A DNA stretch of 64,000 nucleotides. It comes from Taibaiella soli. GTDB taxonomy: Bacteria > Bacteroidota > Bacteroidia > Chitinophagales > Chitinophagaceae. Numbering within the stretch: position 1 is the first letter of the stretch; every line of letters begins with the position of its first letter. Shown in pieces: positions 16,708 to 36,936 of the stretch. Below the pieces are notes generated by a model. The model saw only the letters and a list, made by a program, of their open reading frames with translations, was not told the origin of the DNA and did not search any database. Made by a program: the position numbers and the translations under genes. The stretch lies in the NCBI RefSeq assembly GCF_003236175.1, contig NZ_QKTW01000017.1:295749-359748 (forward strand), in the 5' to 3' direction.

Positions 16708-17007
16708 TCATCCTTTCTGAAACGACGACTTGAAATGGATATGCACATAATCAAACTCATCCCGCTTGAGCACGATGAGTTTAGGGTAGCGCTTGACTTC
16801 TTTATGCGAACTAAACAATCCATCCGACACCGTTTCGATATATTCTGCGCTGCTGTCAATGCTGTCATTGCCCAACCCAGTTCTGCAAGCCCAACAATAG
16901 ATTAATGCATCTTTTGTAAAAGCTTCGGGGTTTATACGACTCAGCTGGCTTGTGGCAGTTCCTTCGTCACAGAGAAGTACGGCCTGTTCGGTTATTTTTT
17001 GTGGCAT
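16708..17007 (-). CDS. Small unknown protein, third gene of the VgrG-effector cluster
   Basis: The 99-residue protein begins MPQKITEQAVLLCDEGTATS and contains the segment YCWACRTGLGNDS. There is no signal peptide or membrane segment. The ATG lies 5 bp after the stop of the lipoprotein gene, so it is probably translated together with vgrG and that gene. The family is not recognised. The sequence could be a remnant of a larger PAAR-like or toxin-associated protein, or an accessory of the effector. The evidence is the open frame, tight spacing and plausible composition only. Confidence 0.55.
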   Translation of the reverse strand: MPQKITEQAVLLCDEGTATSQLSRINPEAFTKDALIYCWACRTGLGNDSIDSSAEYIETVSDGLFSSHKEVKRYPKLIVLKRDEFDYVHIHFKSSFQKG

Positions 17008-17012
17008 AGAAT

Positions 17013-17636
17013 CTATTTTTCGAATTCCTCCAAATCCTCTTTTATTACCGTTCCGTTATAACCGTCAATTGTAATTGTACGTAATGCAAACTCGTCGTTT
17101 CGTTTAATCTTATAACTGATCCACCATACGGCCCTCATACCAGCCTCCCATGTGCGGCTAATTGAAGTATGCTGATCCTCTACATCTATGTTATTTTCCT
17201 TCAAAAAGGCCCGAATCTCTTCCCAACCAAATTTGAACCATAAGTCGTAGTTAATTTCTTTTGTAGTGCGTCCTGCAGCATCATTAAATTTCCAAATTCC
17301 TTTATAAAAATTTCCGCGGAGAAAACTTAGACCTGTTTTCTTTAAACTTCCGCCAGGATAAAATTCTTTGTAAAGGAAAAATAAACTGTCTGGATAAGTA
17401 ATCTGCTCAACATAACCAGTTTCATAATTTCCAAATTGGAGAACATGGTTCCGCCCTTCATAAAATTCGTAGACTTCGTTTTTTTTGTGTTTATCGAATG
17501 TCTCGATGTCGAATACCTCAAACATGACCGACTGTTGATTTAGTAATTTATTTTTTTTCCCACCTTTTATCTGCTGTCCTGTACATGAGATTAACTCAGC
17601 AAAACAAAGAATGCCGACGATAATAATTTTTTTCAT
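17013..17636 (-). CDS. Lipoprotein, candidate immunity protein for the VgrG protease
   Basis: The 207-residue protein has a short signal peptide ending in the lipobox LISC (MKKIIIVGILCFAELISCTG), so it should be anchored in the envelope facing the periplasm. The mature part (FYEGRNHVLQFGNYETGYVEQITYPD, WKFNDAAGRTTKEINYD) has no recognised domain. Its start codon lies 3 bp after the vgrG stop, the position where T6SS immunity genes are found. A periplasmic lipoprotein fits protection against a protease delivered to the periplasm. Function is inferred from position and location only. Confidence 0.72.
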   Translation of the reverse strand: MKKIIIVGILCFAELISCTGQQIKGGKKNKLLNQQSVMFEVFDIETFDKHKKNEVYEFYEGRNHVLQFGNYETGYVEQITYPDSLFFLYKEFYPGGSLKKTGLSFLRGNFYKGIWKFNDAAGRTTKEINYDLWFKFGWEEIRAFLKENNIDVEDQHTSISRTWEAGMRAVWWISYKIKRNDEFALRTITIDGYNGTVIKEDLEEFEK

Positions 17637-17639
17637 TTT

Positions 17640-20600
17640 CTATTCCTTATCGAGTGTACCATGTAAAATCTCCCACTGATATTTGTGACTTGCAACAACA
17701 GGTATCCCTACCATGTCTGAATAGTCCATAATATTGTTTGTATGATTTTGTTCGAAGGTGAATCGGCTATCATTATCGAAAGTATGTAGTAGGCCCATCG
17801 CGTGCAACAATTCGTGAGCCGTTGTGGAATCATTAAACCCTTTAGCATAGACGACAACTTCCCGGACTTTGTTATTTAAACTTCCGATATCGCGCGAATG
17901 ACCATATAATCCCCCAGACTGCTCGTTTATGAAAAATACCTTGTAATAATCCTCATAATTTGTGTGCGAGTTCACCGGGTACTTCTTAATAAAAGCATTT
18001 AAAAGATAATTGTGAATTGAAATTGTCGGAGAAATTTGTTTTGTCCCAAGGGGTCTCATTACGCCAAGTGCCGTATACTGTTGCTTAAATGTGGCATCAT
18101 TAGAAATATCCAATGAAAGAGTCACAATATTGGGCGTTACATAAGCTTGATTGAGATATTTTTCCAACTCGGTTTCACGCCCCGATGGCTGTCCAATCCT
18201 CATTATATTACCTAATTGCGTTTTTACCTGAACAAAAACAATATTTGCTTTGTATCTGTGAGGTTTGTCGTTCGCTAATATTGTTAACTTTCCGGCTAAT
18301 CGCGTAGAACCGTCCTCCGTTATTGCTATTACCTCAACATTCTTACTTTTTGAAAATTCCTTTTTGCATTCAATTGTGAGCCCGTCAGGAATAAAACGTT
18401 TACCCTTTGTTTTTTTAGTAATTGTGGACACACTAAAATGTAAATCTCTTTCGTCATCCAGTTTTTTTCCATCACATATAAATTTCAATTCCGACGGCTC
18501 TTCGATGATATTTAACTTGAGAGAAAGCACGGCTTTGCCCCCCTTTAATAATGTCATTACGGGTACATCATATCCATAATATTGGTTATTTGCCTGCTTT
18601 AGAAATAAGATGTCCAACATTTCGAAACCTCTACAAAGCATCTGATACGCCCTGCTATCAGAAACCAACTTTATCGGAGGATTTAAATCTCTTTTAGTTC
18701 CGATATCATACACCTGCTGCAACACCTGTAGCTTGTTTTTATATCTACCTACAATTGGTTCATATTTTATATCACCAAGTTGCATAGTGTCTCCAATTCT
18801 TACCCAATCAAAACCATACTCTCCTTGGTAAGAACTTCCTACTCTAAATTTAACCGTACATTTAGCATCAAGAATTTTTCTCGTTGTTTCGTATTTATCA
18901 GCTTCGTTGCTATGCTTATTACCATTAGCACCACGTATTTCAACTGTCCCTTTACTGTTCGCAGTTAAAGCTTCGTCACTATGCAGCAGCATTTTATTTT
19001 GACCAGCTGCAGTTACCTCTTTTGCTTCAATTTTAATTTCTCCGTCCAATGAATTGATCAACGCCTTACCGGCCTGCGTATGGAAATACTCCGCAATCAG
19101 CTGTTGCATCACTGGTGTTTCAATCAGCATCTGCTGCATGATATTTAGTAATGCCTTATTGCCCACATTAAAGGTCATATTGTTACCCACATTCACATCC
19201 AGATTCGCTCCGGCAGTCATTGTAATGTTCTTCGGCGCAGTCAAATTGATATTTCCCTTCCCATCCAGATAGAAACTGTTACCACTTGGGTCCTTGACGG
19301 TAATGCTGCCCTGTCCGTCGGCATCATCAAACTGTACGGTGCAGCCGCTGCGGGTAATAATGCTTTTGATATGGTTCCCCATCATACCACCTATCCCATT
19401 TTGTCCATGAAACATGCCACCTAATACAAACGGTTTATCCGGATTGCCATTTTCAAAGCCTACCATCACCTGGTCGCCCACTTCAGGCACAAATACATGT
19501 CCCCTGTTTTTATTGACGGCATCACTGCTGCCTGCATCTGGAGTCATTACGCGGATGAAATCCGTCGGTTCATCCTGCCATGGGAACTGCACTTTTACAC
19601 GACCGTTTGCTTTCCCATATTTATCATCGGTATTAGCAACCACTGTAGCTAGTTGCGGCTCCGCAACCGGCACGGTGAACTGATGAAATGGAAGATTCTC
19701 TGTCTTCTGGGGAATGCCCACAAACTCGCAGTCATAACTGCCGTCGTAACTCAATGTCTGCCTTAGTTCAGTAATGATCAGCGTGGCATAGTGTGTCTTT
19801 TTATTGGTACTTACGTCGCGGATTTCTAATATCACATTGCAACCAGGAAATAAATATGGATTGGTGCTGCGCCCTTTTATGTTGAACAGTTCTGTCGCCT
19901 TAGCGGTTGCATAACTTTTCTGCGAAGCGGTAACATCCATATCACCCACAGCACGGATCGGCGCTACTTGCCGTGTCGGCGTTTTAAACATTTGTTCACT
20001 GGCGGTGAGCGCCTTCTCGCCAAAGTAATCGACACCGGTTATATCAAACGTGTGATGGCGCAGTGCTTCGTTAAACGAACTATTATAACCATAGTGTTCT
20101 GTCTTGGTATGACGGGCGTTCATACTGGCTTCCATGTCGTATACATCGCGGCCTAATACCAGTTTTACATCTGGTTTAAAGAATGGTTTACCAAAGTAAA
20201 GATCTTCGCCATCGTACCAAAACCAGTCGCCATAACCCGCGGCCAGCCTTGCCAGATAATTGTAGTGTGTTTCATTGTACTGACAAGAATAGGGCAAATG
20301 GTTTCTAAACCGTGACTTTACATTTTTTGTATCCAAGCCGGCCTGATTTAAAATTTCGGTAGCTATGGATTGCACGGTCTTGTTGGTAAAACTTTGTGTA
20401 TGCGGGGCCGCATCCAAAAGTAATGTAGGGCTGCCGCCGGAGATGACGATTTCACCAAAGCCATAGGTACAGCGGCGATAACTGACATTGGTTACGATAC
20501 CTTCAAACCATCGTTTCTGATCAGGCCAGACATGATAATAAAAACCGATGCTGATTTTTTCGCCCATCAGTTTGCTGGCGTTCGCCAGCCATTGATCATC

Positions 20601-20978
20601 TACTACCGGACTGCCATCTTTTGAAAGCAACGCATCATGTGCTATGACAAGCTCAAAGGTATGATGCGCAGCTATGCTTTGTAAAAGTTGGAAAGACTCA
20701 AAAGACTTAATAGTGAAGCTTCCCACAAAGATATCGGCGCAGGTATACGCTGCTATACTATCGTGGTCATCCCAATTGATCTTTGTCTTTTTAGGACCGG
20801 AGTGAGCTGCTTCCTCGGGAGCAGAATCTGCCGAAGGCTTATTAATCTCAAATCCCGGTATTACAGGCTGTGTATCTCTGGTGATATAGCGATCTACATC
20901 TTCAATTTCCTGATTCCGCTGTTCAGCCGCATCATGCATCGTTATCGCAGACCGGCTTTTATCTGAAGGATTTGCCAT
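17640..20978 (-). CDS. vgrG: TssI/VgrG spike protein with C-terminal metzincin-type protease domain
   Basis: VgrG forms the trimeric tip of the T6SS tube. The 1112-residue protein is much longer than a plain T6SSiii VgrG (about 600). An N-terminal phage-hub-like region (about 65-430) includes the GIVTNVSYRR and FWYDGEDLYFG segments. A gp5-type OB fold (about 440-530) carries FVPEVGDQVMVGFENGNPDKPFVLGGMFHG, and a beta-helix needle (about 535-720) is rich in short repeats such as NITMTAGANLDVNVGNN. The C-terminal extension holds HELLHAMGLLH at 1055-1065, a perfect HExxHxxGxxH zinc site, and a downstream Met-turn NIMDY with Met1084. This is the signature of metzincin metallopeptidases, so this is an evolved VgrG carrying its own effector. 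Confidence 0.95.
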   Translation of the reverse strand: MANPSDKSRSAITMHDAAEQRNQEIEDVDRYITRDTQPVIPGFEINKPSADSAPEEAAHSGPKKTKINWDDHDSIAAYTCADIFVGSFTIKSFESFQLLQSIAAHHTFELVIAHDALLSKDGSPVVDDQWLANASKLMGEKISIGFYYHVWPDQKRWFEGIVTNVSYRRCTYGFGEIVISGGSPTLLLDAAPHTQSFTNKTVQSIATEILNQAGLDTKNVKSRFRNHLPYSCQYNETHYNYLARLAAGYGDWFWYDGEDLYFGKPFFKPDVKLVLGRDVYDMEASMNARHTKTEHYGYNSSFNEALRHHTFDITGVDYFGEKALTASEQMFKTPTRQVAPIRAVGDMDVTASQKSYATAKATELFNIKGRSTNPYLFPGCNVILEIRDVSTNKKTHYATLIITELRQTLSYDGSYDCEFVGIPQKTENLPFHQFTVPVAEPQLATVVANTDDKYGKANGRVKVQFPWQDEPTDFIRVMTPDAGSSDAVNKNRGHVFVPEVGDQVMVGFENGNPDKPFVLGGMFHGQNGIGGMMGNHIKSIITRSGCTVQFDDADGQGSITVKDPSGNSFYLDGKGNINLTAPKNITMTAGANLDVNVGNNMTFNVGNKALLNIMQQMLIETPVMQQLIAEYFHTQAGKALINSLDGEIKIEAKEVTAAGQNKMLLHSDEALTANSKGTVEIRGANGNKHSNEADKYETTRKILDAKCTVKFRVGSSYQGEYGFDWVRIGDTMQLGDIKYEPIVGRYKNKLQVLQQVYDIGTKRDLNPPIKLVSDSRAYQMLCRGFEMLDILFLKQANNQYYGYDVPVMTLLKGGKAVLSLKLNIIEEPSELKFICDGKKLDDERDLHFSVSTITKKTKGKRFIPDGLTIECKKEFSKSKNVEVIAITEDGSTRLAGKLTILANDKPHRYKANIVFVQVKTQLGNIMRIGQPSGRETELEKYLNQAYVTPNIVTLSLDISNDATFKQQYTALGVMRPLGTKQISPTISIHNYLLNAFIKKYPVNSHTNYEDYYKVFFINEQSGGLYGHSRDIGSLNNKVREVVVYAKGFNDSTTAHELLHAMGLLHTFDNDSRFTFEQNHTNNIMDYSDMVGIPVVASHKYQWEILHGTLDKE

Positions 20979-21019: not shown

Positions 21020-21409
21020 TTACTGATTAAAATCAACGCCATCAAAACTGAGCAACTGAGCGTTTAATGTGAAACAGCTTGTCAAAGAACCCGAATTATG
21101 GTTCTCACCTGTGTAGCTATTTCCAAATTGAATGCAGTAAGCATCTCCAAACTCCAGTACCTGATGGCTTCCGGCCATCACATTTACTTCATAAAATCTA
21201 ATTGACCCTTCTTTTTTATCCGTCGGATTCATGATCCATTGAATCATTTCCTTCGGCGCAGGATTCTGAAGAGTTATGTTTATAGTTCCGCCGCGAACCT
21301 TCGTTTTAGGGACGCCGTCAATACGGGTATTTTGCAGATAGTTAAAAGAACAATGTCTAATTGGATAAACTGTTCCGTCAATAACCAATTCAGATTTAAA
21401 TGAACTCAT
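21020..21409 (-). CDS. tssD2: T6SSiii tube protein TssD (Hcp), second copy
   Basis: The 129-residue protein has the Bacteroidota Hcp/TssD pattern: N-terminal SELVIDGTVYPIRHCSF, central GGTINITLQNP and LEFGDAYCIQFGNSY, with a predicted all-beta fold. Hcp hexamers stack into the inner tube. It differs strongly from the neighbouring TssD at 21564, so the two may form different rings or carry different cargo. It lies 41 bp upstream of vgrG on the same strand and may be the cognate adaptor for loading the protease-bearing spike. A hairpin between the two tssD genes suggests unequal expression. Confidence 0.85.
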   Translation of the reverse strand: MSSFKSELVIDGTVYPIRHCSFNYLQNTRIDGVPKTKVRGGTINITLQNPAPKEMIQWIMNPTDKKEGSIRFYEVNVMAGSHQVLEFGDAYCIQFGNSYTGENHNSGSLTSCFTLNAQLLSFDGVDFNQ

Positions 21410-21563: not shown

Positions 21564-21962
21564 TTAAGCCGTAGGCCACTTGCCATCATACTCAGAGTTA
21601 CCATACTTAATGGTTTCTGCGTTGACGATAAAGCTTACGCGCATGCTGTATTCATTAACAGCATCAAAATTTACTTCATGCCTGGTAACATATCCTTCTT
21701 CCCAGCTCAATTCAATAAGTTTGCCTTCCTCGTTGCTCTTATTGAAAATAATGCTGCCTTTGCAAGGTTTGAATTTCGCGTTCAGCATGCTTTCAAGGAT
21801 GTCACTGCTTTCTGTAGCTTCAATCGTTACTTTAACAGTAGCATCCGACGGATCTGATGCTACGCGGCCAGACGGATCTGCTTTGCGCGCTACATTATAA
21901 TTTACCTCCAGCACTTTGTGGTCTTTGCCACCGTTGAATTTTAAAAGAGCGTTGTACGCCAT
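21564..21962 (-). CDS. tssD: T6SSiii tube protein TssD (Hcp), main copy
   Basis: The 132-residue protein (MAYNALLKFNGGKDHKVLEVNYNVARKAD) is a typical Bacteroidota TssD: an N-terminal beta strand, GRVASDPSDATVKVTIEAT, a helix around SSDILESMLNAKFKPCKGSIIFN, and SWEEGYVTRHEVNFDA before the C-terminal strand. Hcp rings form the secreted tube and can chaperone effectors in their lumen. It is the first structural gene of the minus-strand arm and is preceded by a 195-bp non-coding stretch. Confidence in the family is high. Confidence 0.92.
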   Translation of the reverse strand: MAYNALLKFNGGKDHKVLEVNYNVARKADPSGRVASDPSDATVKVTIEATESSDILESMLNAKFKPCKGSIIFNKSNEEGKLIELSWEEGYVTRHEVNFDAVNEYSMRVSFIVNAETIKYGNSEYDGKWPTA

Positions 21963-23098: not shown

Positions 23099-23608
23099 AT
23101 GAAACCTAAGAATTACAAAATCATAAAAAGACAAGCCTTTATTTTCTGGGCATGGTTCGGAATCCTCCTATTGTGCGCCTTCGCACCTGTTTATCTTTTT
23201 GTAAAAAGTCACCAGATACAGCAAGAATATATAGCTCGTGACGTTGACGATTATAAACAAATCCTTAACAAACAGATATTGTTACACGAGAAAGTGGATT
23301 CATTATATAAGTTGACAGACTTATTGAATAAAGATGCTGTTACGAATGAACAACTGCTGGAAATTTTAATCTCCAGCAAAAGAAATGAAACAATCAGCAT
23401 AATAGGCGCCGACAGTGGGTCTTTCCCTCAATATTCATTTCTCTTAAGTCATATCGATAGTATCATAACGCTTAAAGACACGATTCGCGAGATGACCTAC
23501 CGGAAAAGTGTAGCATTTAAAGATTTTAACGATTGTAAATCCAATACAAAAAAAGTGCAGCTCGACATTTCCGATGACCCCTCCCGGCACTTCTCCGCAA
23601 GTCATTAA
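23099..23608 (+). CDS. tssO: TssO-like T6SSiii membrane protein
   Basis: The 169-residue protein has one N-terminal membrane helix (FIFWAWFGILLLCAFAPVYLFV, residues about 14-36) followed by a long helical, probably coiled-coil, periplasmic part (KILNKQ.LLHEKVDSLYKLTDLLN). This size and topology match TssO of the subtype iii trans-envelope complex (TssN/Q/O/P/R), which replaces TssJLM of other T6SSs. It is the first gene of the plus-strand operon. The assignment rests on topology and position; the next gene is similar in build. Confidence 0.72.
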   Translation: MKPKNYKIIKRQAFIFWAWFGILLLCAFAPVYLFVKSHQIQQEYIARDVDDYKQILNKQILLHEKVDSLYKLTDLLNKDAVTNEQLLEILISSKRNETISIIGADSGSFPQYSFLLSHIDSIITLKDTIREMTYRKSVAFKDFNDCKSNTKKVQLDISDDPSRHFSASH

Positions 23609-23647
23609 AAATACATTTTCTATTTAACCGAAATAAAATCCAACACG

Positions 23648-24169
23648 ATGCCCAGTACTTCGGTCGTTGAAAAAGAACATCAATATTACTTCTATTACCT
23701 ACTACTGTTAGTAACGGCAGGCCTACTATTGCTTGCGTTTATTTTCCTGCGGGGAATGGAGTCACCCTTCAGTAATAATCTGGCTTTCGAAATGCGACTT
23801 CTGGAGGACCGGCAGCAAATGGATATCCTTCAGAAAGAAACCACCCAATATATTCCAAATCTATTTGAAAAAATCAATACCCTGCCAATCGGTCAGTTGA
23901 AAGGATCTACTAAATCAGATCTTAAAATTGACATCGCTAGCATTTCAAGCATTGCAGGAAAGCACGATTTAAATGACAGTCGCAAAGACAGCTACCGACA
24001 AGTCGCAGACTTCTTTGAGATGTATCTATTGGATAAAGAAATCGCTTTTGCAAGACTTCAGGACATAAATCTCTTCACAAACCTATGTAACGATTGCAAT
24101 ATTGGTTTTAAAGAAAAACAGCGGCAGCTGGCCCAGAAAAAAATCGCTATCAGCGCCAGAAGTAATTAA
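23648..24169 (+). CDS. Second TssO-like single-pass T6SSiii protein
   Basis: The 173-residue protein has one membrane helix near the N-terminus (YYFYYLLLLVTAGLLLLAFIFL) and a helical periplasmic part with regularly spaced charged and hydrophobic residues (FEMRLLEDRQQMDILQKETTQY). The architecture mirrors the preceding protein, so it may be a TssO paralogue or take another place in the trans-envelope complex. It has no lipobox, so it is not an obvious TssQ. It lies 39 bp after the first gene and 13 bp before the PKD-domain protein in the same operon. Confidence 0.65.
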   Translation: MPSTSVVEKEHQYYFYYLLLLVTAGLLLLAFIFLRGMESPFSNNLAFEMRLLEDRQQMDILQKETTQYIPNLFEKINTLPIGQLKGSTKSDLKIDIASISSIAGKHDLNDSRKDSYRQVADFFEMYLLDKEIAFARLQDINLFTNLCNDCNIGFKEKQRQLAQKKIAISARSN

Positions 24170-24182
24170 TTCCCTCTAGCAC

Positions 24183-25088
24183 ATGGATCTCATACAAAGA
24201 ACTAAAAAACAGATAATCGGGCTTACCATTCTGCTAATCTTATTTGCGGGTCTTCTATTTGTATGGCTGGAGAAACGTGTCATACACTCTAACGCGGATT
24301 TACAGGTGGTTGTATACCCACAGGATCTGACAATCGGTGACACCTTACATTTTGCAGATCATACCAGCTTCGCGAAACAGCACAGATGGGAATTTGGAGA
24401 CGGGGGTCTCTCCTTTCTGGAGAGTGACAACTACTGCTATACAAAACCTGGCTATTATCAGTTGCGACTCATAGTAAACAATGACTATTTCCGAACCATC
24501 AACATACATGTAAAAGACCGCCCCAAAATAAATGCCCTTGCAGATTCCATAGCAACTATTTCGGCACAGACAGTCGCGATGCAGGATGAAACTATTGAAT
24601 TTCGTTGCAATGCGCTGGATGCAACTTCGTTTCGATGGAAATTTGGCGAAACAGGTCAGGTTGACTCTAAGGAAAAAGTAGCTTTCTATAGCTATAAAAC
24701 GCCAGGGGATTATACCGTGTCACTTCAGGTAAATACAAATCAAGGTCCTGTTGAGCATCACATCAGAATCTTGCCCTCCTTTAAAATTGGCAGCGATTCT
24801 ATATCATTTGATGACCCTTACCAAAAAAAAGATAACGATTTCAAACAGCATTTGCAGCAGATAGCCAATGGCAACAGTTTTAATCTGCATTACAATTACC
24901 TGCTGGAAACATATCTGTGTAAAAATGAAAAAGCATCTGTAAAAATAAACGGAAGCATCGTGAGTGAATTTTATAGCTATTGCGCAAGACTACGGTTTGA
25001 TAAGAATACTACAATACAATCGGTAAAATGTGGTTTCGACGACAGCCTCCGATGTGTTACAAGAGTAGACGTACAGCAAGGCAAATAG
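24183..25088 (+). CDS. tssP: TssP-like PKD-domain T6SSiii protein
   Basis: The 301-residue protein has one N-terminal membrane helix (IIGLTILLILFAGLLFVWL) and then two PKD-like domains in the periplasm: residues about 40-115 with HRWEFGDGG and YTKPGYYQLRL, and about 125-195 with FRWKFGETG and YKTPGDYTVSLQV. The WxFGD/G and PGxYxVxL pairs are the PKD signature. A C-terminal region of about 100 residues contains four cysteines. Topology and place in the operon fit TssP of the trans-envelope complex. A PKD fold suggests contacts with other periplasmic components. Confidence 0.75.
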   Translation: MDLIQRTKKQIIGLTILLILFAGLLFVWLEKRVIHSNADLQVVVYPQDLTIGDTLHFADHTSFAKQHRWEFGDGGLSFLESDNYCYTKPGYYQLRLIVNNDYFRTINIHVKDRPKINALADSIATISAQTVAMQDETIEFRCNALDATSFRWKFGETGQVDSKEKVAFYSYKTPGDYTVSLQVNTNQGPVEHHIRILPSFKIGSDSISFDDPYQKKDNDFKQHLQQIANGNSFNLHYNYLLETYLCKNEKASVKINGSIVSEFYSYCARLRFDKNTTIQSVKCGFDDSLRCVTRVDVQQGK

Positions 25089-25110
25089 CCTGAAAAATTG
25101 ATTGAACGAC

Positions 25111-27507
25111 ATGAAAAAAACTTTGTTTCACATACTAGCCGGATGGTTGATAGTATTAATGCTATCAGGCTGTGCACTATTGCAGCGAAAAATTATCGTG
25201 GTACTGAAAACGCCGCATAGCGAGAATTACGTGGTAGATGGAGATACACTCATCGAAGGGTATGCACTCAACCGAAACTACTGGATTGCCTATTCAGACA
25301 GAAACCCCAATGCTACCCGCACCAGCCGCGAAAATGAGATGCCTTTAAAAAAATTATCTTTTATGGAACCTGTTTGTGTTGTGCAGGAAAAAGGCGACTA
25401 CGTAAAGATTCTCAAATACAATGCAGATGTGGACCTTGCCGAAACAAAAGGCAACGTCTCCCGGAAAACAGCCAGGAACTATGGCTGGATAAAAAAAGAA
25501 CACCTGCTACTTTGGCCGGCTTCCCTGCAAAATAGCGCCACCCGTTACACCGTAAAAGCAGTAACTCATTTTGGGGGAAACGCTATTTTAAATCAACCTC
25601 AGCGTTTTATTACCAACGATTCATTACTGTTATTCACTACGCCTTCTTTGCAAACGCCGTCAGACAAAAAAATAAGCGCGGGCAAAATTGTATACCTATA
25701 TAAGCAATCACAGGATGGGAAAAGTGTGCTTATTGGTTCTGAGTCACTCGTAACGCCCGAAAACGCAAACCAAATAATGTTGGGATGGATCAGCAAAGAT
25801 GCTGTCGCAATCTGGGGCGCGCGGACCGCATTTAACTTATACGCCAATGCCCCCGATTCTATTGGCCTGTACCGAACGGAACAGGAACTGAATGTAACGG
25901 ATGTTTTCAAGCCGTTGCTGAACAGCAATGGCCTTAGAGCACGTAGCACTTTTGAAAACATTTTTCCGGTACGCAATAAAAATTGCTATAACAGCAAAAC
26001 GTTGCAGACCGGATATCTCGAAAATATTATGGACTATACCCACAACAGTGTGTACAATGTTTTGGGGCAAAGCATCGACTACCAGAAATATCAGAAAATT
26101 GTCAGCGACGGAGATCAAATCAACATCGTTTTCGTGTTCGACATATCGGACAACAACAAGAAATACTTCCCACTCATTAAATCTGTAATCCAAGATCTGC
26201 AGGTGTATTTTGACACAACCAATCAACTGAGAAATTGCAGATTCGGTGCGGTAACCTACCGGCACAATACACATGACGGAGACACGGTCGCTAGTGTCCT
26301 GCCGCTTTCCCGAAATTTGCAACAAGTAGAAAAATACATCGATAAGAAATTCGCCAAAAATCTCTATGCCGACGAATCTATCTATCAGCCTTTGTTTGCG
26401 GGTTTAAATGAGGCCTGCAACATGTTACAACCGGTAAAAGATCAGACCAATATTATCGCCGTAATAGGAACCACGGGCAACGACGATGCCGCTACGACAT
26501 ACAGCATGGAACAGGTAATCAAAAAGATCATCTATGTACAAGCGCGGATGCTGTTCTTTCAAACCATCAACAAAACCGCAGACGCTTACAATGACTTTAT
26601 GCTGGATGCAGAAAAAATCATTTTTAACTCTGCAACAAGTATTGCGGAATTAAAAAAGCAAAAACTCGTCGACATCAACGATGTTATTACGACACCTTCC
26701 TACAATATAAGTAATGGCGATTCTGGCATTTACAGTCTGGATTATCCACGCCAAAGCATGACGCAAGGCTTTGCCGTCTTCCCCAAAAAGGGAACTGTGA
26801 TGCAAGCCGGCGTTTTCCGGAAATGTTTTGACAGCCTGGCTAAACAAGTAACGAGTGACAACCGGAATGTCAGTCAAAAACTAACAGAATATTTCCGAAC
26901 GATTGGTATTAAAAGCACGTCATTCCGACCTGAATTTGCTGGATACACAGAGAAAGTAAACCTGAATCCAGACATGGCAAAATCATTTACTACCAGCGGC
27001 AACAGCTTTTTTATACCTGCCTATGTCAAAGCCGAACCAGGAAGTTTAGACATGCAAAATGTTTCATTTGGACTGTTTCTTAATGAAGCAGAATACGATA
27101 AACAGATGGAGCTGTTCTACCACATTTATGCGAAAACAGCTTCCGGAGAAAAATTCAGGAAGAAAAAAGCCTGTCGCAGGTATACGCGATTTATAAAACA
27201 TTATCTGGCCACTAATAAAATTCATACTGATGAGAAAGTAAAATGGATGACACTGGGTAATGTACTGTATTCCTATACCGGTTTTATTTCACCAAATCTG
27301 CTTTACAATAAAGTAACACTTTATAACCTCAAAAGTCTGAGCAAAGAAAAAACACTAAACATCTTCAACAGTTACAAATACGCTGCAGACGCAATGCAAG
27401 AAAAAAAGAACACGGCCCGCGTCAGAATAAATAATAACGGACATAGCTACTACTGGATTTCAGAAGATATGATGCCCGGAACAGTGCAGATGACAAAAGC
27501 TGAATAA
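25111..27507 (+). CDS. tssR: TssR, T6SSiii outer envelope protein with lipobox
   Basis: The 798-residue protein starts at ATG 25111 with a signal peptide ending in lipobox LSGC (LIVLMLSGCALLQ), so it should be lipid anchored. An SH3-like region (about 45-190; WIKKEHLLLWP, LGWISKDAVAIWG) precedes a von Willebrand A-like domain from about residue 338 (INIVFVFDISDNNKKYF, FGAVTYRHN), whose MIDAS site is only partly kept. Size, order and position after TssP match TssR, a defining protein of the Bacteroidota T6SS that contributes to the periplasmic and outer-membrane core. TssR is usually partnered by the lipoprotein TssQ, for which no gene is seen here. Confidence 0.87.
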   Translation: MKKTLFHILAGWLIVLMLSGCALLQRKIIVVLKTPHSENYVVDGDTLIEGYALNRNYWIAYSDRNPNATRTSRENEMPLKKLSFMEPVCVVQEKGDYVKILKYNADVDLAETKGNVSRKTARNYGWIKKEHLLLWPASLQNSATRYTVKAVTHFGGNAILNQPQRFITNDSLLLFTTPSLQTPSDKKISAGKIVYLYKQSQDGKSVLIGSESLVTPENANQIMLGWISKDAVAIWGARTAFNLYANAPDSIGLYRTEQELNVTDVFKPLLNSNGLRARSTFENIFPVRNKNCYNSKTLQTGYLENIMDYTHNSVYNVLGQSIDYQKYQKIVSDGDQINIVFVFDISDNNKKYFPLIKSVIQDLQVYFDTTNQLRNCRFGAVTYRHNTHDGDTVASVLPLSRNLQQVEKYIDKKFAKNLYADESIYQPLFAGLNEACNMLQPVKDQTNIIAVIGTTGNDDAATTYSMEQVIKKIIYVQARMLFFQTINKTADAYNDFMLDAEKIIFNSATSIAELKKQKLVDINDVITTPSYNISNGDSGIYSLDYPRQSMTQGFAVFPKKGTVMQAGVFRKCFDSLAKQVTSDNRNVSQKLTEYFRTIGIKSTSFRPEFAGYTEKVNLNPDMAKSFTTSGNSFFIPAYVKAEPGSLDMQNVSFGLFLNEAEYDKQMELFYHIYAKTASGEKFRKKKACRRYTRFIKHYLATNKIHTDEKVKWMTLGNVLYSYTGFISPNLLYNKVTLYNLKSLSKEKTLNIFNSYKYAADAMQEKKNTARVRINNNGHSYYWISEDMMPGTVQMTKAE

Positions 27508-27540
27508 CGATTCCAAATAACTATCCTGAAAAACTGATAC

Positions 27541-30036
27541 ATGAGCGTACCATTTGCAAACGACGCAGTCAAAAACATACTACACATAGCGGCAGCCATC
27601 GCGCGGGAAAACTATAACCCGGATTATGGCGCACCACATTTGCTTCGTGCATTAATGCATCCCGACACAGGCATGCAGGATTTTTTGCGCACGCTGGATA
27701 AAGACCCTGCCTATTTCATGGATTGGGCCGAAGTGCGTATCGAAGAATACCGGAAAACAAACACACTTCCGGAGGTCGCTGAACAAAATGAGGAAATAGA
27801 ACGGTTGCTGGACGAAGCGGATGAGGTACGCCTAAAACTAGGGCTGGGTGAAATATCCGCTTTATGCCTGCTTACTGCACTGGTAAAACCGCATGTGGTA
27901 TTTACCTCCCTACAATTAAAATCTTTGCCGCTCCGCGAAAGCGAAATCCTGTCATTATTCGAAAGCAAAGAACAGAATAAAATTCAGAATGTATCTGAAT
28001 TGATGACCGGGGCAAATCAACAGCACCGGCCAGACGGTGCGTTGCGTAAATATTGCATTGACAAAACAATCCTGGCCGCAAAAGGGAATATTGATCCGAT
28101 TATCGGTCGCGAGCGGGAAACACGAATGCTCATAGAAATACTGGGTCGCAGGAATAAACCAAATGTGATTATTACCGGCGAGCCCGGAGTCGGCAAAACA
28201 GCATTAGCAGATGGCCTTGCCTTTGAGATCAATGCAAACAATGTACCGTTGCATTTGCAAAAAGCGATACTGCTTGAGCTGGACCTGGGTGCACTGATGG
28301 CAGGTGCATCTTATAAAGGAGAAATAGAAGATCGGCTCAAGAAAGTAATTACGGAATTAAAAACGCTGGATAAGGCAATTTTGTTTATTGACGAAATACA
28401 CCAGCTACTGGACAGTAAAGGATCTCTTGGTACCGGCACCGCTAATCTGCTGAAGCCAGAATTAGCCAGAGGTGCTATTACCGTTATCGGCGCTACGACA
28501 CAAGAAGAATACCGAAAAATAATAGAACCGGATCAGGCATTCAGCCGCCGTTTTGAAGTCTTACCGATTCTTGAGCCAACTGAAGAAATCTGTTGCAAAA
28601 TGGTAGCGTTCCTGGCGCCTAAATATGAAGCGCATCACAAGATAGCAGTAGCGCCGGACGCCGTTGCAGAATGCGTGCGTCTCTCTAAAAGATATCTCAA
28701 GGAAAAACGATTGCCAGATGCCGCACTTGATCTGCTGGACAGAACTATGGCAGCCATCCGTATGCTGGAGGAAACCTCGCTGAGCGAACTGCAACTCTGG
28801 AAAGAGAAATTTGACGCGCTAAAGACTGACCATCACACGGACAGTACAACTGCAATAAAAGAATACCGCTGGTGCTACCAACTACTGCAAAATATGGTAA
28901 GCCCGATTTTATGGGGCAGTCTTGAAGAACAACCAGACATCAGCCGCATCGAAAATATTGCAGCGCTGCAGGCGATATTAGAACAAACCTATACAGTGCT
29001 TACCAGATTCAGCAAAATTAAAAGCGATACTGTTGGCAAACTGGAATTAGCGGCGGTAATGGCTGCAAAAACAGGCATCCCACTGGGAAAAATACAGGCG
29101 CAGGAGAAGGAAAAACTGCTAAATATGGAAAGCCTGCTGATGAAACGCGTAATAGGTCAGGATCATGCGCTAAAGGTACTTAGTGACGCAATCATCGAGA
29201 GCCGCAGTGGCATCAATAAACCGGGACAACCAATAGGTTCATTCTTTTTGCTTGGCCCCACAGGTACCGGTAAAACCGAACTGGCGAAATCGATAGCTGA
29301 ATTGCTCTTCAACGACGAAAAAGCAATGATCCGTTTTGATATGTCCGAATTTAAAGAAGAACATTCAGCAGCGTTGCTATACGGCGCGCCTCCGGGATAT
29401 GTCGGTTATGAAGAAGGTGGAATGCTGGTCAATAAAATCCGGCAGCAGCCCTACTCTGTTGTGCTCTTCGACGAAATAGAAAAAGCGCATCCTTCAGTAT
29501 TCGATGTTTTTCTTCAAATAATGGACGAAGGGAAAATAATGGATAAGCTGGGTAAAGAAGGCGATTTCAGCAATGCACTCATTCTGTTTACTTCCAATGT
29601 GGGCAGTCAACATGTGATTGAAAAGTTTGAACAACAAAAAATTCCAACCTCGCGGGAATTAATGAGCATTATGGCACAGAACTTCAGACCGGAATTCCTG
29701 GCACGTATTACCGAGATCTTACCATTTGCGCCAATTAGCGATGAAATGGCTGTTCGCATTTTTGACAAGCAGTTAAAAACGCTGATTCGTCCACTACAGC
29801 AAATGGGAATCAATTTTACCATAAGTATTGACGCAAAAAAACAGCTGGCGCTCAGCGGCTTCTCCACGCAATATGGCGCCCGGCAGATAGACGGCGTGAT
29901 CCGCAGCCAGCTTAGTCGTCCCGTATCCAAAATGATCGTACGGGAGCAAGTAAAAAATGGTGACACCATACAAGTATCACTTAATGCAGACGGCCTTCTG
30001 GATTGGTTAGTGACATCAAATGTTGAAACTAAATAA
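27541..30036 (+). CDS. tssH: TssH/ClpV sheath-disassembly ATPase
   Basis: ClpV hexamers pull contracted TssB/C sheath apart for recycling. The 831-residue protein has the Clp N-domain (1-150, ENYNPDYGAPHLLRALM), AAA module 1 with Walker A GEPGVGKT at 213-220 and Walker B ILFIDEIHQL, a short middle domain, and AAA module 2 with Walker A GPTGTGKT at 572-579, Walker B VVLFDEIEKAH and a C-terminal D2-small domain (YGARQIDGVIRSQL). The N-terminus lacks the duplicated repeat typical of housekeeping ClpB. Its place inside the tss operon makes it the dedicated TssH. The stop overlaps the next start by 17 bp. Confidence 0.95.
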   Translation: MSVPFANDAVKNILHIAAAIARENYNPDYGAPHLLRALMHPDTGMQDFLRTLDKDPAYFMDWAEVRIEEYRKTNTLPEVAEQNEEIERLLDEADEVRLKLGLGEISALCLLTALVKPHVVFTSLQLKSLPLRESEILSLFESKEQNKIQNVSELMTGANQQHRPDGALRKYCIDKTILAAKGNIDPIIGRERETRMLIEILGRRNKPNVIITGEPGVGKTALADGLAFEINANNVPLHLQKAILLELDLGALMAGASYKGEIEDRLKKVITELKTLDKAILFIDEIHQLLDSKGSLGTGTANLLKPELARGAITVIGATTQEEYRKIIEPDQAFSRRFEVLPILEPTEEICCKMVAFLAPKYEAHHKIAVAPDAVAECVRLSKRYLKEKRLPDAALDLLDRTMAAIRMLEETSLSELQLWKEKFDALKTDHHTDSTTAIKEYRWCYQLLQNMVSPILWGSLEEQPDISRIENIAALQAILEQTYTVLTRFSKIKSDTVGKLELAAVMAAKTGIPLGKIQAQEKEKLLNMESLLMKRVIGQDHALKVLSDAIIESRSGINKPGQPIGSFFLLGPTGTGKTELAKSIAELLFNDEKAMIRFDMSEFKEEHSAALLYGAPPGYVGYEEGGMLVNKIRQQPYSVVLFDEIEKAHPSVFDVFLQIMDEGKIMDKLGKEGDFSNALILFTSNVGSQHVIEKFEQQKIPTSRELMSIMAQNFRPEFLARITEILPFAPISDEMAVRIFDKQLKTLIRPLQQMGINFTISIDAKKQLALSGFSTQYGARQIDGVIRSQLSRPVSKMIVREQVKNGDTIQVSLNADGLLDWLVTSNVETK

Positions 30037-30886
30037 CGCTCAGATGCTTCCTTTGCGGTCTCTTTTCGTCACACTATTCATTGTATTCACCACTTATGCA
30101 AGCTGGTGTATGAATGGCATTGACACCACCGACAACAAAATAGCTTATTACCGGACTTCTGTAAACCGGAACAAAAATGTAGTCCAGTTTATTGACAAAG
30201 CCCTACAGGCATATGGACTTCCAAAAGCGTTGCACAATCTGGCATTGATAGAATCTGATTTTAACCGCAGCATCATATCAACCGCAAATGCAGTCGGCAC
30301 CTGGCAAATAACGCCAGTAGTCGCATCTGATTATGGACTACGTATTGACAGTACACACGATGAACGCTACGATTTATATAAAAGCACTCAGGTTGCCTGC
30401 CGCAATCTTGCAGACCTCTACGGCATGTATAAAAACTGGATACTTGTTGTAGCAGCCTACAACTGTGGTGCCGGCAGGGTGAACAAAGCAATTGCCAAAG
30501 CCGGCAGTAGTAATTACGCCGACTTCTTCCGCTTTTTGCCAAACGAGACAATCATGCATGTCTACAAATTCCAGTTGGCTTGTTATGCAAACAACGACCG
30601 CTACGAGATCAGAGTAAGCAAACCAGAATCAACGCCAGGAGCGGACGAATTACCACAGACACGGCCAGGCATCAGTCAGATAAACATCAGCGCGGGATAT
30701 AAACTTCTGATAATCGCTGACAAACTTCAGTTACCGCTGGAAGAACTACAACGATTGAATCCAGATTTCGAAAAAAAGATCAATGAAACGGGCAGCACTT
30801 TATTGTATTTGCCCACAGACAAAATGCCAGACTTTGTACTCATGCAAACCGAAGTGCTGAGCGAAAGTCTGGAAACCGAACAGTGA
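30020..30886 (+). CDS. T6SS-associated lytic transglycosylase with LysM-like tail
   Basis: The 288-residue protein has a signal peptide (LFVTLFIVFTTYASW) and a family-1 SLT lytic transglycosylase domain: ALIESDFNRSIISTANAVGTWQI split over residues 75-97 with catalytic Glu78, then AAYNCGAGRVNKAI. A C-terminal segment (INISAGYKLLIIADKLQLPLEELQRLNP) looks like a LysM peptidoglycan-binding motif. The family (MltD-like) cleaves glycan strands. The gene lies inside the tss operon, overlapping tssH, so it probably opens the peptidoglycan to let the trans-envelope complex assemble. ATG 30020 or 30044 may be used. Confidence 0.88.
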   Translation: MLKLNNAQMLPLRSLFVTLFIVFTTYASWCMNGIDTTDNKIAYYRTSVNRNKNVVQFIDKALQAYGLPKALHNLALIESDFNRSIISTANAVGTWQITPVVASDYGLRIDSTHDERYDLYKSTQVACRNLADLYGMYKNWILVVAAYNCGAGRVNKAIAKAGSSNYADFFRFLPNETIMHVYKFQLACYANNDRYEIRVSKPESTPGADELPQTRPGISQINISAGYKLLIIADKLQLPLEELQRLNPDFEKKINETGSTLLYLPTDKMPDFVLMQTEVLSESLETEQ

Positions 30887-30898
30887 AAAAACACTAAC

Positions 30899-31336
30899 AT
30901 GAATTCGAATTATAAGTTACCCTTCAATCCCACAAGTCTGTTTTGCGAGGATGGAAAAATTGCGACTTGTCGCATGGAAGAAAGTATCGCGCAAAATATC
31001 ATGTTGCTGATTACCACCCGTCCCGGAGAAAACCGGTTTGATCCGGATTATGGGAATGCCGTTTGGGACACTGAATTTGAAAATGCTACTTCAGAAAAAG
31101 ACTGGGAGCGGATATTCTGCGCAAGCATGGCAACAGCAATTGAACGATACGAAACACGAATATGTAAGCCGGAAATTACTGTGCGCGTGAACCATGTGGA
31201 ACAAACATATGACAACAAAAAATTCGTAGAAATAAAAAAGAAAGCCGTTATCCGGATAAAAGCCTTACTGAAGGAAAACTTTGAGACATTCCATTTTGCA
31301 ACGGAAATATTTCTGAGTCCGCTTTCCGTAGACTAA
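30899..31336 (+). CDS. tssE: TssE, gp25-like baseplate protein
   Basis: TssE is a wedge component of the T6SS baseplate, homologous to phage T4 gp25. The 145-residue protein has the gp25 signature: SIAQNIMLLITTRPGENRFDPDYG at residues about 27-50 (the RPGE..F.P.YG pattern), followed by an amphipathic helix and a beta-strand core. It is soluble. It lies 12 bp after the transglycosylase and 14 bp before tssF, the common E-F-G order. Confidence 0.92.
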   Translation: MNSNYKLPFNPTSLFCEDGKIATCRMEESIAQNIMLLITTRPGENRFDPDYGNAVWDTEFENATSEKDWERIFCASMATAIERYETRICKPEITVRVNHVEQTYDNKKFVEIKKKAVIRIKALLKENFETFHFATEIFLSPLSVD

Positions 31337-31350
31337 AAAATTGAACAGAG

Positions 31351-33234
31351 ATGATGAGACAGGTATTAAACGTGGATTCAAAAGAGGCAATCAAAGCACG
31401 GATGTTGCAGAACGCAGCCACACTCTGGGGTATTAAAAATCCGCAGGCACTGGACCCATTCGTAAAACTTTTGATTGAAGCCTTCGCTGCAGAAATATTC
31501 CGGCTCAGTAACGAAACGGAACGGATTGAGGCACGTTTGGTCGAAAAAATAGCCAGATTGCTTACACCATCGATCTATACAATTCCTCAGCCTGCTCATG
31601 CAATCGCCCGTGCATTACCGCTTGACCCGATTTGCATATTAAACAGCGAACAGGAATTCAGACATTCGATAATACTCCCCGCACAGTACAAAGGAGATTC
31701 GGAAACAACCTTTGGAATTAACTTTACAGCGGTCGACGGCGTAGAGCTGTCCCACACCGATATCGCCTGCATTGCGACGGGATATGGCTGCAAGTGGTTT
31801 GACGCCAAAATGAACCGCAGTGCAATCGCCTATACAAATGCAATGCCCATTAACTACGGAGAAATGTGGCTTGCGCTCGACATCAGTAAAATGGGATCTG
31901 ATTTTCCGGAATCGCTATCCTTCTATTTTGCCAATCCGGCATTTGAACAGCTGCAATGGATCTATCAGTTACTTCCATATGCAACGGCTAGTATAGCCGG
32001 TCATCCACTGATTATAACACCGGGCCTTTCCTATATTTCCAAACCGCTAGCCGACGGTTATGAGGAAATTTTTAATGACTTTGATATTCAAAGACGTATT
32101 ACCGACGATATAAAAAAACAATACGATCCACAGTTTATTACGCTAACCGGATTTCCGGATCAAATAAAAAAACAAGTCACCAATCTACCTGCATCACTCT
32201 GCCAGAATTTTACCGCACAGGACGTTGAAAGCAATTTTACGAAACCATACCTATGGCTTAAACTGAAATTTCCACCGCAGTATACATTTGACATACTCGA
32301 CCAATTTTTCGTCAGCCTGAATGCGTTTCCCCTGATCAACAGGAAATGGGAACACAAGGATTATAAAGTAGAAATCACAAGTGACAATATTCCGATAGAA
32401 TCGACGGCAGGAACACATTTCCTTTCTGTTCAAAAAGTACAGGATGACCACGGCAGGCATTATACCGAAATCCCTTACGGTGGCATTAATAACATGGCGA
32501 CCGGACATTATTCTGTAAGGCGGAGCGGCATGGAGCGTTATGACAAACGCAGCGCGCTCGATATCGCAAACTATATGCTGGAGCTCGGGCGCGATGAAGT
32601 AGCAGCCTTCGGGTCATTAACCAACAGCGACGGAAAAGAACCCGCAAAAGAAATTGTCATACATCTGAACCGGCTGGAACGCGCGGCAAAAGAAATACGG
32701 CGCACAGCACTCGACGCTCCGGTTTATATTGTCATTGAACCACAGGAAAAAGTAGAACAAATCAATCTCGGATATTGGGTTACCAATGGTACACTCGCCA
32801 ATAATTTCAGAGCCGGACAAATATTAAAAGCAGACACAGGCGCTTTGCTGGCCGACAATACGCTTACACTGTTAAGCGCAACCAGAGGCGGAGATGGGCC
32901 GCAGACCGGCACCGACAGTATTAATGCATATCGTTATGCGCTCACCTCAAGAGACCGTATTGTCACATTTCTCGATATCAAAAATTTCTGTCAATACGAA
33001 TTAAAAGGCGTTATTAAATCTGTACTGGTAAAGAAGGGAACGGCACTGAGTTCAAAGCCGAAGGAAGGATTTGTGCGTACCACCGATATATTCATTACCG
33101 TAATCAATTACAGCTCTTATCCCCAATACTATTGGCAGGCAAAAGAGCAGGAATTGATTCAGAAAATAGATGCCCGCGCAGTAGACGGTGTAACGAGGCG
33201 TGTTTTTATAGCTGCAGAAAATAAAAACGCATAA
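31351..33234 (+). CDS. tssF: TssF baseplate protein
   Basis: TssF is the main wedge protein of the T6SS baseplate, working with TssG, TssE and TssK. The 627-residue length matches the family. The N-terminus (SKEAIKARMLQNAATLWGI...DPFVKLLIEAFAAEIFRLSNE) and the segment VEKIARLLTPSIYTIPQPAHAIA are the conserved TssF opening; the middle and C-terminus (TGTDSINAYRYALTSRDRIVTFLDI) fit the jelly-roll and C-terminal parts. It is encoded directly before tssG with a 4-bp gap, so the two are coupled and probably made in fixed ratio. Confidence 0.92.
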   Translation: MMRQVLNVDSKEAIKARMLQNAATLWGIKNPQALDPFVKLLIEAFAAEIFRLSNETERIEARLVEKIARLLTPSIYTIPQPAHAIARALPLDPICILNSEQEFRHSIILPAQYKGDSETTFGINFTAVDGVELSHTDIACIATGYGCKWFDAKMNRSAIAYTNAMPINYGEMWLALDISKMGSDFPESLSFYFANPAFEQLQWIYQLLPYATASIAGHPLIITPGLSYISKPLADGYEEIFNDFDIQRRITDDIKKQYDPQFITLTGFPDQIKKQVTNLPASLCQNFTAQDVESNFTKPYLWLKLKFPPQYTFDILDQFFVSLNAFPLINRKWEHKDYKVEITSDNIPIESTAGTHFLSVQKVQDDHGRHYTEIPYGGINNMATGHYSVRRSGMERYDKRSALDIANYMLELGRDEVAAFGSLTNSDGKEPAKEIVIHLNRLERAAKEIRRTALDAPVYIVIEPQEKVEQINLGYWVTNGTLANNFRAGQILKADTGALLADNTLTLLSATRGGDGPQTGTDSINAYRYALTSRDRIVTFLDIKNFCQYELKGVIKSVLVKKGTALSSKPKEGFVRTTDIFITVINYSSYPQYYWQAKEQELIQKIDARAVDGVTRRVFIAAENKNA

Positions 33235-33238
33235 TCGT

Positions 33239-34174
33239 ATGAAACGAAAATCCATTTTACCGCGGCATCCTAACGGGCTCAAAACTGATTTCAAAGCTGA
33301 AGTTGTCGCAGCTGCGCTGCTTCAGTTTTATGACTCGGCACAAAGCGTTTATATCAAACGGCTCGGTAATCGCGGCAGAGCGAAGAAAAAGGATATCGCC
33401 CGGATATGGGAAGACCATATGTCGCTCACACCATGTGATATTGTCATTGAAGTGAACCGGGAAGGCATATACGATTACATGCCAGAAGGTGTTTTTCATA
33501 AACCCACTTTGGGAAAAATAAAGCATGGAACGGAGGCCGTTATTGCAGCCATAAGAGAACAACGACGTCAGGAAAATGACAACAGACTTTTCTTCAGTCC
33601 GTTTGAACAGGAAACTTTTTTGCAGGAAATATTTGCGCTAAGCATTGAACAACGTATCGACAACAAAGGACTACATGATAATTTGCTGCAGCTTATCTAC
33701 CCGCTCTGGCCGTTGTTGGAGCAACTAGATACCGCGACCGCCAAAATTTTCATTTACCTGCTGCCATTTTTCTATATGGCCAGCGGCAATAAAAAGTGGT
33801 TTACAAAAATATTGCAGTCATTACTTGGCTATCCGATAACGATAACAGAAGTACCGCATCTCATGAAGATTGACCGGCATCATCCAGAAATCGATTTCCG
33901 GATCAAGAGATTAGGTATCAGCACGGTACTCACCGGAGATCATTTCGACGGCAATACAAACTGGCAATTAACCATTGGACCGGTTGATGCAAAAGATGCT
34001 ACGGCTTTTTTACCCAACAGCAAAATGAATCAGCTGCTACTGGCCATTTATGAAAATTTCGCACCCGAAGAAACTGAAATTAAGCAGAAACTAAGCATCC
34101 GTCACAAACCTTTCCGCCTTTCCAACCGCAAAAATGAATGGAGCGGACACCTTGGCTATACAACCTTTATTTAA
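33239..34174 (+). CDS. tssG: TssG baseplate protein
   Basis: The 311-residue protein follows tssF by 4 bp in the usual order and has the length of T6SSiii TssG, which binds TssF in the baseplate wedge. The middle (LLQLIYPLWPLLEQLDTATAKIFIYLLPFF) and C-terminal parts show the helix-rich to beta-rich change typical of the family, with LTIGPVDAKDATAFLPNSKMNQLL near the end. Sequence conservation is low in this family, so the assignment leans on gene order. No membrane segment is expected; the hydrophobic middle is a buried helix. Confidence 0.85.
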   Translation: MKRKSILPRHPNGLKTDFKAEVVAAALLQFYDSAQSVYIKRLGNRGRAKKKDIARIWEDHMSLTPCDIVIEVNREGIYDYMPEGVFHKPTLGKIKHGTEAVIAAIREQRRQENDNRLFFSPFEQETFLQEIFALSIEQRIDNKGLHDNLLQLIYPLWPLLEQLDTATAKIFIYLLPFFYMASGNKKWFTKILQSLLGYPITITEVPHLMKIDRHHPEIDFRIKRLGISTVLTGDHFDGNTNWQLTIGPVDAKDATAFLPNSKMNQLLLAIYENFAPEETEIKQKLSIRHKPFRLSNRKNEWSGHLGYTTFI

Positions 34175-34183
34175 ATACGAAAC

Positions 34184-35116: not shown

Positions 35117-35135
35117 TTCAAAAAAACAGAATCGA

Positions 35136-36269: not shown

Positions 36270-36349
36270 ATAAGAAATCATGTCAGCAAACAAATTTCAA
36301 AACTGATGGGCTTTCCGTTTCACAGTGCATTCAAAAAAATCAGAAGTAT

Positions 36350-36366
36350 GCTGGGATTGAGTCCCA
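36350..36366 (+). promoter_or_regulatory. Hairpin upstream of the tssB core start
   Basis: CTGGGA and TCCCAG form a stem in the segment between tssK and the TssB core ATG at 36459. If tssB begins at 36459, this is part of a 190-bp leader, much longer than other gaps in the operon, and could stabilise or process the mRNA for the abundant sheath proteins. Confidence 0.4.
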
Positions 36367-36458
36367 GAGCACCAGACCGTGCGCAGGAAATTCCAGACAA
36401 AAATGAGTCCAATAACAATGGTCTAAATATTATTCTTAATCAATCAAAAAATAACACT

Positions 36459-36911: not shown

Positions 36912-36936
36912 TTAATCATCCACGAAAGACAAAATA

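Follow-up and report, generated by a model that had tools for sequence, protein, structure and literature searches.

A VgrG spike protein with a metzincin-type C-terminal domain and a likely lipoprotein immunity partner in Taibaiella soli

The vgrG gene and its C-terminal domain

The window analysed here, a 64,000-nucleotide stretch of the Taibaiella soli genome, contains a gene for VgrG, the spike protein of the type VI secretion system (T6SS), that encodes a zinc-protease signature near its 3′ end and is directly followed by a lipoprotein gene. An earlier note, made from the sequence alone, had read the pair as an evolved VgrG carrying a metzincin-type protease into rival cells, with the lipoprotein as its immunity protein. 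The features of the pair are listed below.

17640..20978, minus strand: vgrG with C-terminal effector, 1112 amino acids (aa) (open reading frame (ORF) list, Pfam, motif scan)
18924..20978, minus strand: VgrG core (GPD hub, OB fold, DUF2345 needle), residues 1-685 (Pfam; DNA identity to the second locus)
18264..18881, minus strand: beta-rich accessory domain, about residues 700-905 (conserved along with the protease; FRxxxxYxGExGFDWxR)
17643..18263, minus strand: predicted metzincin catalytic domain, residues 906-1112
17784..17816, minus strand: zinc-binding motif HELLHAMGLLH, residues 1055-1065 (motif scan, alignments)
17727..17729, minus strand: Met-turn methionine M1084 (NIMDYS) (motif scan, alignments)
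17013..17636, minus strand: lipoprotein, predicted immunity protein, 207 aa (ORF; family hidden Markov model (HMM), 150.8 bits)
17583..17585, minus strand: lipobox cysteine C18 (LISC) (by eye; column at least 90% Cys in 58 aligned members)
17241..17489, minus strand: beta-sheet half of the lipoprotein (MORN_2-like in relatives)
17016..17252, minus strand: PepSY-like C-terminal half of the lipoprotein

The VgrG core, the C-terminal extension with its zinc motif and M1084, and the lipoprotein gene starting 3 bp past the vgrG stop had all been described in the earlier note, and each was recovered by ORF analysis, Pfam and motif scan, the lipobox being assigned by eye. In the core, PF05954 (47 bits) and PF04717 (64 bits) exceeded their Pfam cut-offs; DUF2345 (22.5 bits) and NCBIfam TIGR03361 (109 bits, cut-off 186) remained below theirs. 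Beyond the needle, residues 906-1112 form an effector domain with a metzincin fold in the predicted model, the layout of an evolved VgrG.

The motif HExxHxxGxxH together with a Met-turn is the signature of the metzincin clan. A six-frame scan of the window finds the pattern HExxHxx[GN]xx[HD] once, as HELLHAMGLLH in VgrG. We compared 80 sequences, from 78 loci of other genomes, the window and a second locus of the same genome (L088). The three zinc-site His and the Glu are retained in 79 of them. At the Met-turn, 74 sequences have Met, five have Leu and one has Glu; these counts are partly circular, the loci having been partly recovered with a pattern that covers the motif. The position before the third His is variable (G in 66 of the 80). 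The earlier note had also called for a structure prediction of the extension. Run on residues 690-1112 alone, AlphaFold2 gave a high-confidence model (predicted local distance difference test, pLDDT, 89.8), in which residues 906-1112 adopt a metzincin fold. Because the His and Glu residues are so widely retained and the modelled fold is that of a metzincin, the zinc motif is not a chance occurrence, and the signature first seen by motif holds. A single sequence, L069, has lost a zinc ligand, as might be expected if the domain were an inactive relic and the pair passively carried along. However, the ligands and the catalytic Glu persist in all the others, even in copies that are only 26-27% identical, and the pairing described below persists over many genera, which makes a relic highly improbable.

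Among solved structures, the folds nearest to the modelled catalytic domain include fragilysin, snake-venom and ADAM-type metzincins. Assignment by sequence to a named family (M12B, M12A, M10C fragilysin, M43) was looser. The window protein scores under every Pfam peptidase cut-off, its match to Reprolysin_5 (18.8 bits, cut-off 27) being suggestive at most. In 48 members of the family, matches at E up to 0.01 were to Reprolysin_4 (19), Astacin (9), Reprolysin_5 (8) and, more rarely, Met-zincin PF16313 (2), Reprolysin_3 (1) and M10 (1). One relative (P0005) is automatically annotated as a reprolysin-like peptidase. DUF4157 matched neither the window VgrG (E up to 1) nor the families found in the 48 members (E up to 0.01). 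Searching PDB sequences with only the module as query gave nothing useful; the A1 profile retrieved just Hcp chains and, at E 0.14, MMP-20.

The preceding beta-rich domain was modelled with pLDDT mostly above 90, and in 48 sequences its residues F, R, G, G, F, D, R and others are invariant. A homology search with this domain alone matched only itself. The catalytic domain is also present in 99 of the 102 reading frames that carry the beta-rich domain (overlapping loci recounted). Among the remaining three, the one in L044 adjoins the second part of a split gene, and those in L047 and L071 are weak. The domain contains a nearly invariant cysteine, C871 (18366-18368, minus strand), followed by KEF in many relatives; it is a possible latency (cysteine-switch) residue.

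The lipoprotein family and its pairing with the protease

A direct homology search with the lipoprotein matched only the query, as if it were an orphan; neighbourhood comparison of loci overturned this. Comparison loci were fetched with the protease alignment alone (the best 80 of 156 confirmed stretches, 78 distinct), and an HMM was built from 75 of the downstream ORFs, leaving out the window protein, both L088 paralogs, L001, L003 and L041. This HMM scored the window lipoprotein at E 4.8e-45 (2075 frames), and the main frames of the six members outside the build set reached 89-203 bits. Judged from these profile matches, the lipoprotein is a member of a fast-evolving family that follows the metzincin gene.

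A search for the same gene pair elsewhere had been proposed, and it was found throughout: a lipoprotein-family frame adjoins the metzincin gene in 78/78 loci from other genomes. In 77 of these it overlaps the protease gene or starts at most 63 bp from its stop; in L017 the distance is 339 bp. The weakest match, 45 bits, is the split gene of L078, all other loci having at least 100 bits, and 23/78 loci have two or more family members scoring 80 bits or higher within the fetched stretch. The genera include Chryseobacterium, Flavobacterium, Chitinophaga, Pedobacter, Prevotella and Aquimarina, among others.

What carries the protease varies. In the 78 loci the carrier is VgrG in 22, Hcp in 10, a short N-terminus of the MSRTRIVKG type in 30, and other or truncated in 16; a set of 111 proteins that includes the one from the window shows it fused to VgrG, to Hcp/TssD and, in one case, to a DUF4280 PAAR-like domain. 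Pieces of catalytic domain without any carrier (two in L027, one each in L099 and L062) are each followed by a lipoprotein gene. Since the lipoprotein follows the protease also on Hcp or the short N-terminus, its presence goes with the protease rather than with VgrG. Judging from these arrangements, the beta-rich domain, metzincin and lipoprotein behave as one module on varied carriers. The earlier note had held that a lipoprotein in genomes without this type of VgrG would refute its reading. Taken literally such cases exist, with the Hcp and short-N-terminus carriers and in four of 12 genomes discussed below; the pairing idea itself stands. The short N-terminus (MSRTRIVKGTYTK...) looks like a shared T6SS delivery tag. 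It also begins two large ORFs beside metzincin genes, L115:1-1464 and L096:1-1449 (both minus strand), in which different sequence follows MSRTRIVKGTYTK....

A crude scan found a hydrophobic stretch near the N-terminus in 71 of the 74 members with an assigned start (the others being L044, L057 and L070), and at least 90% of 58 aligned members retain the lipobox cysteine. For the C-terminal half of the immunity family, PepSY gave a fold match and the best sequence-profile match. This half appears PepSY-like, resembling a protease-propeptide inhibitor domain; PepSY has been described as likely protease-inhibitory (PMC5078317, partial text). MORN_2 (PF07661) matched 20/58 family members in Pfam and gave no match in the window lipoprotein. 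TIMP-like inhibitors were absent among the matches listed for the lipoprotein model, which does not exclude them.

The two proteins also diverged together. Pairwise distances of the catalytic domain and the lipoprotein correlated with r = 0.74 over 70 non-redundant loci, a value reached in 0 of 2000 permutations. This set omits three loci lacking an assigned start (L001, L003 and L041), as well as L017, L078 and five near-identical ones, and represents L088 by its first lipoprotein paralog. In 18 non-redundant VgrG fusions, including the window and L088 and excluding L073 (not VgrG by HMM), the correlation was r = 0.86 between protease and lipoprotein as against r = 0.53 between protease and VgrG core, and the protease-lipoprotein partial correlation given the VgrG core was 0.80.

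These results bear on a different reading of the pair, in which the main targets of the metzincin are eukaryotic cells (amoebae, hosts) and the lipoprotein serves as a chaperone, an activator or a processing partner. The nearest solved folds listed above lean that way, fragilysin acts on host cells (PMC8406203, partial text), and in Listeria a metzincin-lipoprotein pair reportedly affects the cell wall via cleavage of the lipoprotein (PMC8235301, partial text). Immunity nevertheless fits better than a helper role, because the partner is retained in every locus, co-diverges with the protease, has extra copies at 23/78 loci and follows even broken-off protease pieces. As to a chaperone in particular, the signal-like N-terminus would put the lipoprotein outside the compartment where loading takes place. 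We therefore regard the eukaryote-directed reading with a helper lipoprotein as unlikely.

Cassette exchange and T6SS context

The same genome (G000) encodes a second VgrG-metzincin of 1133 aa (C21:28037-31069; L088 3672-7073). The order at L088 is VgrG-metzincin, two lipoprotein paralogs, and a PAAR-like ORF. The paralogs score 89.2 and 149.5 bits with the family HMM, and E 0.15 and 3.9e-13 by direct comparison. At the DNA level, the first approximately 200 bp of the two vgrG genes differ, and 1557 bp of the VgrG core (20781-19225) are 83% identical. From approximately VgrG residue 585 onward, across the protease and lipoprotein, this identity is lost (36-54% in 150-column windows); the PAAR-like ORF then opens with 71 bp that are again 83% identical. 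Accordingly, the first 560 residues of the VgrG proteins are 87% identical and the catalytic domains 26-27%. Because the VgrG core and the start of the PAAR-like ORF match on either side of a stretch that does not, the protease and lipoprotein genes form, on this DNA comparison, a swapped cassette with the lipoprotein inside it. At the corresponding place in the window lies a short ORF:

16708..17007, minus strand: 99-aa ORF, first 34 residues PAAR-like (DUF4280-type), the rest diverged

Its residues 1-34 are 62% identical to the PAAR-like ORF of L088 and continue into an unrelated tail of approximately 65 residues; the ORF is likely a remnant or chimera at the cassette boundary. A weak third family-like ORF of 120 aa in the same genome (L089:2247-2609, minus strand; HMM E 0.0013) is either truncated or unrelated to the lipoprotein family.

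The pair thus combines a conserved delivery part, an exchanged stretch with the predicted toxin and immunity gene, and co-variation of the predicted toxin with this directly downstream gene, as in polymorphic toxin-immunity systems. It might instead be proposed that the protease stays with its producer as a spike-borne processing enzyme, which might for instance mature effectors delivered along with it, and that the lipoprotein shields the producer's own envelope; PVC-metallopeptidases have been described as processing the toxins of contractile systems (PMC3482391, partial text). But the domain occupies the C-terminal toxin position, protease and lipoprotein were exchanged as a unit while the spike core was retained, and versions with the short N-terminus end with the protease and have no other C-terminal domain. 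A processing role thus appears very improbable.

The secretion system itself is encoded nearby:

21020..21409, minus strand: Hcp (TssD), upstream of vgrG (PF17642, 89 bits)
21564..21962, minus strand: Hcp (TssD), second copy (PF17642, 109 bits)
23099..38289, plus strand: T6SS subtype iii (T6SSiii) structural cluster (Pfam/NCBIfam)

The cluster comprises TssO, a PKD protein, a ClpV-like AAA+ protein, a gp25-like protein, a TssF-like protein, TssG, TssN, a TssK-like protein, a TssB-like protein and TssC. TssO, TssN (270 bits), TssG and TssC (757 bits) exceed their cut-offs and link the VgrG to subtype iii; the TssK and TssF matches are weak or below. A second TssC in the genome (G000:C3:138106-139392) possibly marks a second T6SSiii cluster.

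Across 395 Bacteroidota genomes, the lipoprotein profile gave matches with E no higher than 1e-5 in 24, and in 12 of these the match reached 80 bits or more. A metzincin is adjacent in eight of these 12 (G000, G316, G265, G182, G210, G331, G057, G343); in the other four (G285, G324, G335, G202) none was seen within the fetched flank of approximately 1.5 kb. At the loci of the remaining 12 genomes, with lipoprotein matches of approximately 30 bits, no metzincin was found. TssC occurs in 25 of the 395 genomes and in 8/8 with an adjacent pair (hypergeometric 7.9e-11), or in 7/7 when the window's own genome is set aside (1.2e-9); of the four genomes without an adjacent metzincin, G285 alone carries it. 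Among 39 nearer relatives, seven gave a lipoprotein match, with the adjacent pair in G000, G395 and G401; the other four were weak and had none. The protease profile was less sensitive. It found 5/395 genomes, one of them weakly (G118, 58.6 bits, a 2021-aa frame with no lipoprotein match), and missed G265, G210, G057 and G343, where the lipoprotein loci show a metzincin. For this reason the presence counts rest on lipoprotein matches.

Four family members (L097, L098, L101, L102; 90-97 bits) lie in four genomes with no metzincin nearby, three of which lack TssC; they are possible orphan immunity genes. In the window, directly after TssC, a Fic-domain protein (38409-39761, plus strand; NCBIfam XopAC/AvrAC-like, E 8.4e-13, far below cut-off) is possibly another T6SS effector. 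Downstream of the pair, a 142-aa ORF (16113-16541, minus strand) is lipoprotein-like by eye and has no Pfam or NCBIfam match; it may encode another immunity protein or have no connection to the pair. Between it and the next gene, 15788-16050 consists of tandem 42/84-bp units (approximately six and three copies, 76-95% matches). Farther away, 48471-52745 and 53486-57988 (minus strand) encode very large proteins of 1424 and 1500 aa with C-terminal sorting domains of the type IX secretion system.

Proposed action and known systems

Overall, we consider it probable that the VgrG metzincin is a protease toxin and that the lipoprotein is its immunity protein, with a PepSY-like inhibitor half. The evolved VgrG with protease and lipoprotein immunity put forward in the earlier note is supported by the adjacency in all 78 loci, the second pair, the cassette exchange and the co-divergence, the toxicity itself being predicted. 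The adjacent T6SSiii would load and fire the VgrG, and the metzincin domain would enter the periplasm of a neighbouring cell, where it may cut an envelope protein of the rival. The site had been given as periplasm or cytoplasm; the periplasm is now favoured, because the N-terminus encoded by most immunity genes is signal-like or has a lipobox. Producer and sibling cells would be shielded by the periplasm-facing, lipid-anchored lipoprotein, whose PepSY-like half may bind and block the protease directly. On a wider view, Bacteroidota T6SSs would arm all parts of the needle, from VgrG tip, Hcp ring and PAAR-like cap to free cargo, with a single metzincin family. Each producer would survive by means of a membrane-tethered lipoprotein with PepSY as its active part, a zymogen brake of secreted metalloproteases relocated to its own immunity gene and re-aimed at another protease clan; this generalization could equally hold or fail.

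To our knowledge, activity and partner are established for few T6SSiii effectors. If correct, the proposal would add a protease class to the T6SS effectors, together with an antidote family conserved across Bacteroidota genera. The PepSY-like half provides a directly testable mechanism of inhibition, and the two pairs in one genome permit a specificity test of each lipoprotein against its own protease. Neither a metzincin T6SS effector nor a PepSY-type immunity protein was described in the open-access titles and abstract openings among the matches listed.

Several known systems share parts of this arrangement. The modelled catalytic fold and the HExxHxxGxxH motif with Met-turn are those of fragilysin and B. 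fragilis metalloproteinase-II, mirolysin, ulilysin and the adamalysins. Fragilysin-type and other metzincins are secreted by means of a signal peptide and mostly have a prodomain, whereas the window domain rides a T6SS spike. The C-terminal half of the immunity family resembles, in fold and profile, the PepSY of M4 propeptides, YpeB, YpmB and CD1622. In M4 peptidases, however, PepSY is part of the precursor (PMC5078317, partial text); here it would belong to a separate, lipid-anchored protein and act against a metzincin.

Zincin-type proteases at the C-terminus of polymorphic toxins, as here, are described as Tox-MPTase1-5, HopH1-type and PVC-metallopeptidase, although Tox-MPTase1-5 mostly occur with RHS repeats and are given no immunity partner (PMC3482391, partial text). 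The words reprolysin, PepSY and MORN are absent from that part of the text. Listeria Mtz-Tim likewise pairs a metzincin gene with a lipoprotein gene resembling a protease inhibitor, but it is phage-derived, Gram-positive and non-T6SS, and its TIMP-like lipoprotein is reported to be cleaved by the metzincin (PMC8235301, partial text).

The closest working parallel is VgrG2b-PA0261 of the Pseudomonas aeruginosa H2-T6SS. There too, an evolved VgrG ends in a zinc metallopeptidase domain (HEXXH), and its gene lies next to one for a periplasm-facing immunity protein; in its relatives, immunity proteins are predicted to be lipoproteins or membrane-anchored, and homologous domains occur on PAAR proteins and as cargo (PMC6899460, partial text). 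In contrast to VgrG2b, with its proteobacterial DUF4157, the window protein has a metzincin-type domain and a separate beta-rich domain, belongs to a Bacteroidota T6SSiii, and has Hcp-fused counterparts. The immunity family also looks different from that of VgrG2b, combining a MORN_2-like sheet with a PepSY-like half.

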